NCBI RefSeq assembly: GCF_016908325.1 | Contig: NZ_JAFBDR010000024.1 | Span: 1-64,000 of the forward strand | Reading direction: 5' to 3' | DNA: 64,000 bases | From: Aquibacillus albus | Lineage (GTDB): Bacteria; Bacillota; Bacilli; Bacillales; Amphibacillaceae | Shown: piece by piece, positions 30,212 through 32,572 of the stretch | Numbering within the stretch: position 1 is the stretch's first letter | Layout of the letters: each line of letters begins with the position of its first letter | The notes under the pieces: model-generated | Seen by the model: the letters and a program-made list of their open reading frames with translations, nothing else | What the model was told of the DNA's origin: nothing | Databases searched by the model: none | Made by a program: the position numbers and the translations under genes

Positions 30212-32467
30212 TTACATTACTTCAAAATAGTTTCTAATTTCTAGTTCTGATTGAAGTAGAATGGCAACTTCGACACCGGAATTTTCCGGTGAATATATCT
30301 CCATACTTCCCTGCATACTATGGACACGTTGCCTTATTCCTGCAAGTCCCATACTTTGAGTAGGACTGTATTGCTTATTCGATGGCAGCCCTACCCCGTC
30401 ATCTATATAACTTATAATAACAAGATCACCTGCACTCTTTATTTCAATGTTAATGAGACTTGCTTCCGAATGTTTCGATGCGTTATTTAATAATTCTTGG
30501 ACAATTCGATAAATGGCCAAAGCTTGATCATCTCCCAAATCAACTTTAAAATCCCGAGAGATAAATTGAATGTCAAAACATTCACGAGCCCGATAATGCT
30601 GAATCAAGTAAGATAATGCTTCAACAATACCCGTTTCTTTTAAAAATGGTGGCCTTAATAGTGTACAAGTTTCTCGAATTTGCTCCACAACCCCCAGCAA
30701 TCCTTCTCGTAAATCAGTTAATTGTTCTCTAATTTGAATAGGTATTTGATCTCCTTCCAATAAGTCCTCCACTTTGCGATACCATATTAATTGCTCTTGT
30801 AAAGCGGAATCATGCAAGTCAGAAGATAATCTTGCTCGCTCTTTTTCAGATAGGTTAAATAATAACCTCAGAATCCAGGATGGCATAGCATGATCATTGT
30901 GTAACGATTGATTCAAATCCTCAGTAACACCTTCTATCAGCTGAAAGTTTTCATACACAATGCTCGTATAATGAACAAGCGTCTCTATCCATCGTTGCTC
31001 ATCTTGGTTAAATGAAGTATAATTCGCCTTCTGCTCAATCCATAAAATATGAATAGAATCATGTTGCTCACTGACGATGTAGCACAAATTACCTTCAATT
31101 AAAAATTGAGAACCTATTGATAACATTGATTCGTGATAAATCATATACATCTCTATTAAGTCTTTTGAATAATGTTCATCACCAGCAGAAGAGTGCACAA
31201 TCGCCTCATCCTTATCAAACCTTACAAGAGAGACATTTTCAACAGGGATAACTTCTTTGATTTCTTGGATTAACCTCTCATCTAATTCTTCTTTCTTTAC
31301 TATTTTAGCTATATCATAAGAGAAACGATCGAGATTGAATTGTTCTTTAAATAATTTGCGTCGAACATTTAATTTCTCTTCTAAATAGAAAAATAGAATT
31401 AGCAATCCGTAAGTTAACATCGTTAGTCTTGCCCACTGCAAATACGATAAATTTGTAAAGAATATAACTAATCCGATAATCACTCCTGTCAATATCAATG
31501 AAATAAAAGAATAGTACCGAAGCCGACCATTAATAAAATCAATATCAAACACTTGATTCATCAAAGCTAAATAAAGAAAGAATACTGGTAAAAAAACAAG
31601 GCATGCAGCCGTAATTGGAGCAGGAAGCAATTCCACTCCAAATATAGTGCTTGGTAATGCAGTTAAAAAGATAAATGGGAAGAATGAGACTGCAATACCA
31701 AAAATCGCATTCTGAAAAATCGGCTTATGAACCGTTTTTCGGAACTTTATATAATAGTGAATAAGTACAAAGAAACCAAATAAAAATTCTAAAGAAAATA
31801 GGATTAATTGCGCATTCCTAATAAATTCATACATACCGCCGATATATAAATAACTCGCTAGCATGCCGATTAAAACCACGAACAAGTTTACCGCATAAAG
31901 CATCGCAAGAATTTTTCGTTTAATTAATTGGAACTGATACTTCAAAAAATAACGATAATGGAAATGAATAAATAGTAAAGGTACCATCATTAGAGAGAGA
32001 CTATTAATAAAGCGGGCGAATGGATCTGCCCGAGCTGAAGCTCCCGCACTCAAATAACCAAGTCCAACCGCTAATAGAAACGCAATTAAGATTAAAACGA
32101 CCTTATTCTCTCGTTCCTTCCAATAAATATAAAACGAGAATCCAAAGAGCACCATGAATACAATCAAAGGTAATAACGTATGGTACAAAAGAGTATTGTA
32201 GTTAATTGGAATTTGAACTTTATATTCAAGCTGATCTCCATTTCGCAGAACCTTCACTTGATCGAGGTTACCAATCACTCCATACTGTTGAATAGAATGA
32301 TACAAGTCGGGAGATTGTTCATTAACTTCTGTAATGATATCTCCTAATTGAATCTTCCTTTGTCCTGCCCAACCAATAGAGTCTACTTTTGTAACTTCCC
32401 ACATTCCATTTGTATTCTTCTTTACATCTAGTCCTACATAGGTTTCAGCCACTGTCACATAAACCAT
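30212..32467 (-). CDS. comP: ComP-type quorum-sensing histidine kinase, 5' end probably frameshifted
   Basis: This is a membrane sensor kinase of 751 residues in the open frame. A PDZ-like extracellular loop (KIQLGDIITEVN) is followed by several membrane helices (about 90-360), a GAF-like region, and a HisKA_3 kinase core with the phospho-acceptor in SSDLHDSALQEQL near residue 556 and an ATPase domain with ELLNNASKHS. The open frame starts at ATG 32467 with no ribosome binding site and without the first helix of ComP. Just upstream, ATG 32535 after AAAGGAG begins MEFIKCNKFIVFF, which runs into a T9 tract. One extra T would continue it as LIIIKLVAIYMVYVT in the comP frame, restoring the missing helix. 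The full gene is therefore probably 30212-32535, with a shift at 32496-32504. It should sense the ComX pheromone. Confidence 0.92.
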   Translation of the reverse strand: MVYVTVAETYVGLDVKKNTNGMWEVTKVDSIGWAGQRKIQLGDIITEVNEQSPDLYHSIQQYGVIGNLDQVKVLRNGDQLEYKVQIPINYNTLLYHTLLPLIVFMVLFGFSFYIYWKERENKVVLILIAFLLAVGLGYLSAGASARADPFARFINSLSLMMVPLLFIHFHYRYFLKYQFQLIKRKILAMLYAVNLFVVLIGMLASYLYIGGMYEFIRNAQLILFSLEFLFGFFVLIHYYIKFRKTVHKPIFQNAIFGIAVSFFPFIFLTALPSTIFGVELLPAPITAACLVFLPVFFLYLALMNQVFDIDFINGRLRYYSFISLILTGVIIGLVIFFTNLSYLQWARLTMLTYGLLILFFYLEEKLNVRRKLFKEQFNLDRFSYDIAKIVKKEELDERLIQEIKEVIPVENVSLVRFDKDEAIVHSSAGDEHYSKDLIEMYMIYHESMLSIGSQFLIEGNLCYIVSEQHDSIHILWIEQKANYTSFNQDEQRWIETLVHYTSIVYENFQLIEGVTEDLNQSLHNDHAMPSWILRLLFNLSEKERARLSSDLHDSALQEQLIWYRKVEDLLEGDQIPIQIREQLTDLREGLLGVVEQIRETCTLLRPPFLKETGIVEALSYLIQHYRARECFDIQFISRDFKVDLGDDQALAIYRIVQELLNNASKHSEASLINIEIKSAGDLVIISYIDDGVGLPSNKQYSPTQSMGLAGIRQRVHSMQGSMEIYSPENSGVEVAILLQSELEIRNYFEVM

Positions 32468-32495
32468 ATATATAGCAACTAGTTTAATAATGATT

Positions 32496-32504
32496 AAAAA
32501 AAAA
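32496..32504 (-). repeat. T9 homopolymer at the start of comP
   Basis: Nine consecutive T on the coding strand lie 11 codons after the likely comP start. With nine the frame stops at once at TAA; with ten (or seven) it joins the long comP frame. This could be a slippage-prone switch, a fixed mutation or a sequencing error. Confidence 0.8.
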
Positions 32505-32572
32505 CAATAAACTTATTGCATTTGATAAATTCCATGCAATTCTCCTTTCCCCTTATTTATCAAAAACTACAA

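Follow-up and report, generated by a model that had tools for sequence, protein, structure and literature searches.

Programmed transcriptional slippage at A/T runs is described in bacteria for mxiE of Shigella (PMC1088944; PMC3711429; PMC5009743), for dnaX of Thermus, with nine A, and for IS elements (PMC1088944); in each, an A/T run of about nine lies at an ORF junction and the tract and ORF layout are kept in homologues. The mxiE gene uses a run of exactly nine T. One comparative screen of 108 bacterial genomes found seven cases of conserved slippage use, six of them IS elements (PMC1088944). Programmed −1 ribosomal frameshifting is represented by dnaX of E. coli and by the IS3 family. In prfB (RF2) a conserved frameshift near the start gates the full-length protein (PMC12421855); its motif and direction are different and it is autoregulated. 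The ComQXPA quorum-sensing system of Bacillus subtilis consists of four adjacent genes on one strand. In the Aquibacillus albus locus described here, the start of comP, the gene for the pheromone receptor, is broken at a run of nine T. As in the slippage genes, an A/T run of nine stands at the junction of two frames of one protein; here, however, the run begins (over the seven species compared below) within codons 6–11 of a membrane receptor gene and frame 0 would make only a short peptide, so that a shift would gate the whole protein. Compared with E. coli dnaX and the IS3 family, the in-phase slippery heptamer and the direction of shift are the same, but no SD-like stimulator was found in the interval tested and no structure is shared by the seven species. 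Compared with prfB, no feedback of that kind is known here. Recoding as such is known; its proposed occurrence at the start of a quorum-sensing receptor gene is what is new. In a literature search confined to open-access papers and judged by titles and openings of abstracts, none was found on slippage or T9 frameshifting in comP.

The window, that is, the whole stretch of 64,000 nucleotides analysed, carries a comQXPA locus on the minus strand: comQ (isoprenyl transferase, 312 aa; 33807–32869; Pfam polyprenyl_synt, E 9.1e-17), comX (pheromone precursor, 56 aa; 32836–32666; Pfam ComX, E 4.5e-17), comP, and comA (response regulator, 225 aa; 30212–29535; Pfam Response_reg and GerE). The Pfam domains match those of the B. 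subtilis system, and ComX ends in KCYWQ, with a tryptophan near its C-terminus. A terminator-like hairpin, AAAAGCCAGAGTTACTCTGGCTTTT, stands between comX and comP (32595–32571, minus strand) and may lower comP relative to comX transcription; a CCAGAG...CTCTGG hairpin was found in all seven T9 loci and in two of the three unbroken loci scanned with them (genomes G263 and G339, not G407).

The start of comP was read directly from the sequence. A Shine-Dalgarno sequence, AAGGAG (32547–32542), is followed after six bases by ATG at 32535, which opens a 13-codon frame, MEFIKCNKFIVFF, ending GTT-TTT-TTT-TAA at 32496–32494 (frame-0 ORF 32535–32494, minus strand). The stop lies in the T9 run (32504–32496; core GTTTTTTTTTAR at 32505–32494). 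ComP continues in the −1 frame, which is open from 32512 to 30212 (766 codons from stop to stop); its body (32497–30212, minus strand) comprises 761 codons from TTA in the tract, plus stop, and encodes the rest of the predicted first membrane helix, a weak PDZ match below the Pfam cut-off, a membrane part, HisKA_3 and HATPase_c. The first ATG of this frame is at 32467 (32467–32465), and no purine-rich site was seen by eye just upstream of it. A −1 ribosomal shift, or one extra U in the transcript, would give the same protein, ...VFF-LIIIKLVAIYMVYVTVAETY. The observation made in the initial annotation, that an ATG at 32535 with a perfect ribosome binding site leads into a T9 tract from which one more T restores ComP with its first helix, was thus confirmed. 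Its interpretation, that comP is misread or switched off by a phase-variable tract, was only partly supported: the upstream ATG is the likely start, the shifted frame supplies a predicted first helix and the tract matters, but the inactive or erroneous state is not supported, and the programmed recoding to which the comparative data point had not been listed.

Relatives of ComP were sought in several genome sets. Among 159 genomes of the same family three further ComPs were found at 70–74% identity over the searched part (genomes G034, apparently Gracilibacillus sp. YIM 98692, G032 and G022). A sample of 397 genomes of the order gave three more at 64–68% in another family (G231, G427 and G338), and 29 genomes of that family gave these same three. 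All six have exactly T9 at the same distance from the Met/Leu codon matching 32467; pairwise identity among the seven ComPs is 58.8–94.2%. In all seven, an ATG behind a G-rich or purine-rich stretch opens 8 to 13 codons ending GTT TTT TTT TAA or TAG. The start regions of 42 distinct ComP homologues were read (20 places, 19 further ones, and three for which only runs of eight or more were looked for). The T9 arrangement is present in 7 of 7 members of one clade, supported 100/100, and in 0 of the 35 other homologues; the other 28 rows of the 35-row tree lack it. Eight closer relatives in a third family (45–57% to the query) have no such run and read through in frame from a plausible start codon. 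These counts cover only the 20 best places of the order-wide search and leave out its weaker hits (22–34% identity), except those of genomes G025, G027 and G126, which were read from the family search. A class-wide sample of 398 genomes gave, at E 1e-50, only the genome of the window (G000), G585 and G720, and their three other ComPs show no run of eight or more in the 150 bases before the match. A plasmid search gave five records at 26–28% identity, which the counts likewise leave out, and a further collection of genome contigs gave one locus, apparently the same assembly as G034, with the same start sequence.

This recurrence bears on two of the rival explanations. Homopolymers are common sites of sequencing error, and a true tract of T10 would restore the frame; however, exactly T9 in the same phase was found in seven species, two of which (G022 and G032) are represented by single-contig assemblies, and an error or a chance OFF phase would not be expected to recur seven times, so that a sequencing or assembly error is regarded as all but excluded. 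DNA-level phase variation, with T9 OFF and T10 ON, switching by replication slippage and giving signal-blind cheaters, was the reading of the initial annotation. Homopolymers near gene starts are known contingency loci and A/T runs are slippery for DNA polymerase too (PMC3711429); quorum-sensing mutants arise in Bacillus subtilis (PMC7661731). Loss mutants of comP are common. On the other hand, a phase-variable tract should differ in length somewhere, whereas 0 of 7 species, each represented without further strains, show any length but nine; all would be OFF at once, which, if they are treated as independent with equal odds, is (1/2)^7, or below 1% by our own estimate, and comP is under constraint across the seven. 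Phase variation is therefore not excluded but fits poorly and is considered unlikely.

The tract appears to be maintained. The comQ, comP and comA frames are open in all seven loci (in the six other loci the check covered these three genes and left out comX), and comP is under purifying selection (pN/pS 0.256 with pS 0.664). The block GTTTTTTTTTA is invariant over 11 nt, whereas the longest invariant block in the 2295 aligned columns downstream is 10 nt; 0 of 3 other invariant Phe-Phe pairs keep their codons, and other A/T runs of six or more are shared by at most four of the seven species. Columns with an invariant residue keep one codon in all seven in 61 of 343 cases, among them 9 of 28 Phe, 5 of 54 Leu and 1 of 23 Val. 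The seven sequences nevertheless form one clade and not seven independent origins, and the tract could have been kept partly by hydrophobic codon choice. The T9 run is the only A/T run of nine or more in the window. The genome as a whole avoids such runs, with 56 against about 290–470 expected from Markov models of order 1–4, which were fitted to the 64-kb window only and not split into coding and non-coding sequence. However, 28 of the 56, that of comP included, lie in frames open for at least 100 codons, so that A9/T9 is tolerated in genes here; this number is above the 20-gene mark at which PMC1088944 asks for such a test of avoidance.

The specificity of the arrangement was examined by pattern searches. 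A pattern of AAGG, ATG and GTTTTTTTTTAR within set distances matches 8 places in 8 of the 159 genomes of the family; four are comP, and none of the other four pairs an in-phase stop with a long −1 frame, although one of the loci examined (L132) has 95 open codons in the other shifted frame. A similar GGGG pattern matches 6 of the 397 genomes of the order; four are comP, and the other two are frames in which the run is read through without a break. The reversed control matched 7 genomes in the first search and 17 in the second, so the bare pattern is not enriched; what is special is its place in comP.

Whether ComP could simply start, or re-start after the short ORF, at ATG 32467 without the first helix, the upstream ORF being a leader, was considered next. 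An ATG stands at this position, 30 nt after the tract codon TTA begins, in 5 of 7 species, and a published census of comQXPA loci reports ComPs lacking the N-terminal membrane helix in 9 of 60 cases (PMC4008528). Use of 32467 by relatives, together with retention of the shifted upstream frame, had been named beforehand as evidence against the T9 switch, and was found only in part: relatives do keep the shifted frame, but the Met is Leu in G427 (CTC) and G338 (CTT), which rules out 32467 as a shared start. The codons between the tract and this position stay hydrophobic in the shifted frame in all seven (LIIIKLVAIY, LAIIMLIGLY, LTIVLLIGLY, LAIVLLIGLY, LIIIALIAFY, LILTAFTAVY and LIIVVVTAAY), with pN/pS 0.61, less constrained than the rest, and with most changes at third positions (83, 60, 99). 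Joined to the frame-0 peptide they form a stretch with a 19-residue hydropathy of 2.28–2.76, as in three unbroken relatives (2.02–2.39), whereas from the 32467 position onward the maximum is only −0.24 to 0.27. Unbroken relatives have this predicted helix, and without it the PDZ-like part would, by inference, lie on the other side of the membrane. A start at 32467 is thus considered very unlikely. In G427 and G338 (loci L042/L043), however, both the zero frame and the ComP frame have an ATG before the T9 run, so that two starts could feed the same receptor. The ATG in the ComP frame lies 0–1 nt after the G-rich site, too close by ordinary spacing rules, but a start of ComP there without a shift cannot be excluded.

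Two mechanisms of recoding were compared. For a ribosomal −1 shift, the heptamer U UUU UUU is in phase in 7 of 7 (GTT TTT TTT TAR), with a stop codon next, and U_UU.U_UU.U is among the motifs chosen for more than 0.10% shifting without stimulators in E. coli (PMC4066793). No SD-like stimulator of the tested kinds was found 6–17 nt upstream in 7 of 7. The RNA just downstream of the tract folds better than shuffles in the window (32490–32421, minus strand; −17.0 kcal/mol, z −2.5) and in the same region of G032 (locus L036; −17.0 kcal/mol, z −3.05), which could help a ribosomal route, but not in the other five species (z −1.18 to +1.76); the folds differ in position, and 0 of 18 consensus pairs have two-sided changes. 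Structure-stimulated ribosomal frameshifting was rejected on these grounds. A structure is not always found in prokaryotic cases (PMC4066793). In the same consensus, RNAalifold pairs the ribosome binding site with the U-tract (32547–32494, minus strand); this pairing, mostly G-U and A-U, is very weak and without two-sided changes, and it could mask initiation or be an artefact of composition. Only seven U are needed for the ribosomal shift, yet nine are fixed, though the two outer T also fit the hydrophobic codons. For transcriptional slippage, nine is the length at which selection against A/T runs becomes evident in a large proportion of 108 bacterial genomes (PMC1088944), runs of more than eight T are cited for transcriptional realignment (PMC3711429), and E. 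coli RNA polymerase gave 5% and 10% rescue by insertion on poly(T7/8) (PMC6260861). Transcriptional slippage was therefore placed first, at about even chances, and ribosomal frameshifting second, as the less likely main mechanism, with both possibly acting.

Taken together, conserved programmed frameshifting by either route is considered the likely explanation, on comparative evidence alone. In this view, ribosomes would start at ATG 32535 and read into the run; on an exact U9 mRNA they would stop at UAA and make only a 13-residue peptide, whereas messages to which RNA polymerase has added one U, or a ribosomal −1 slip, would yield full-length ComP with its first membrane helix, and the slip rate would set a low, steady receptor dose. 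The analysis itself establishes the anatomy, its conservation in seven species, and purifying selection on the body and, more weakly, on the shifted segment; that frame 0 is translated, that a slip occurs, that it is mainly transcriptional and that it sets receptor dose are inferences. It is possible, although put at somewhat less than even chances, that a whole clade of bacteria makes its pheromone receptor only from messages on which RNA polymerase has slipped at a fixed T9 tract; receptor dose, and so the quorum threshold, would then be set by slippage rate and could respond to polymerase speed or UTP supply. A sensor kinase that must be recoded to exist would add a layer of control to quorum sensing. 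By inference, annotation would call such a ComP frameshifted or start it at 32467 without its first helix, and some of the nine helix-less ComPs of the published census (PMC4008528) could be unrecognised frame breaks or wrong starts.

The other T9 sites of this genome were also scanned for a similar break. Two loci (L095 and L099) have open frames whose start follows the run, but no start ORF like that of comP was seen in the frames examined. At a further locus (L109, on contig C16 of the genome), one open frame (MKKKLYFPATALRNLAALSLFVAFL...) holds two separate T9 runs, at bases 829 and 1226, both read in frame, although such runs are rare in this genome.
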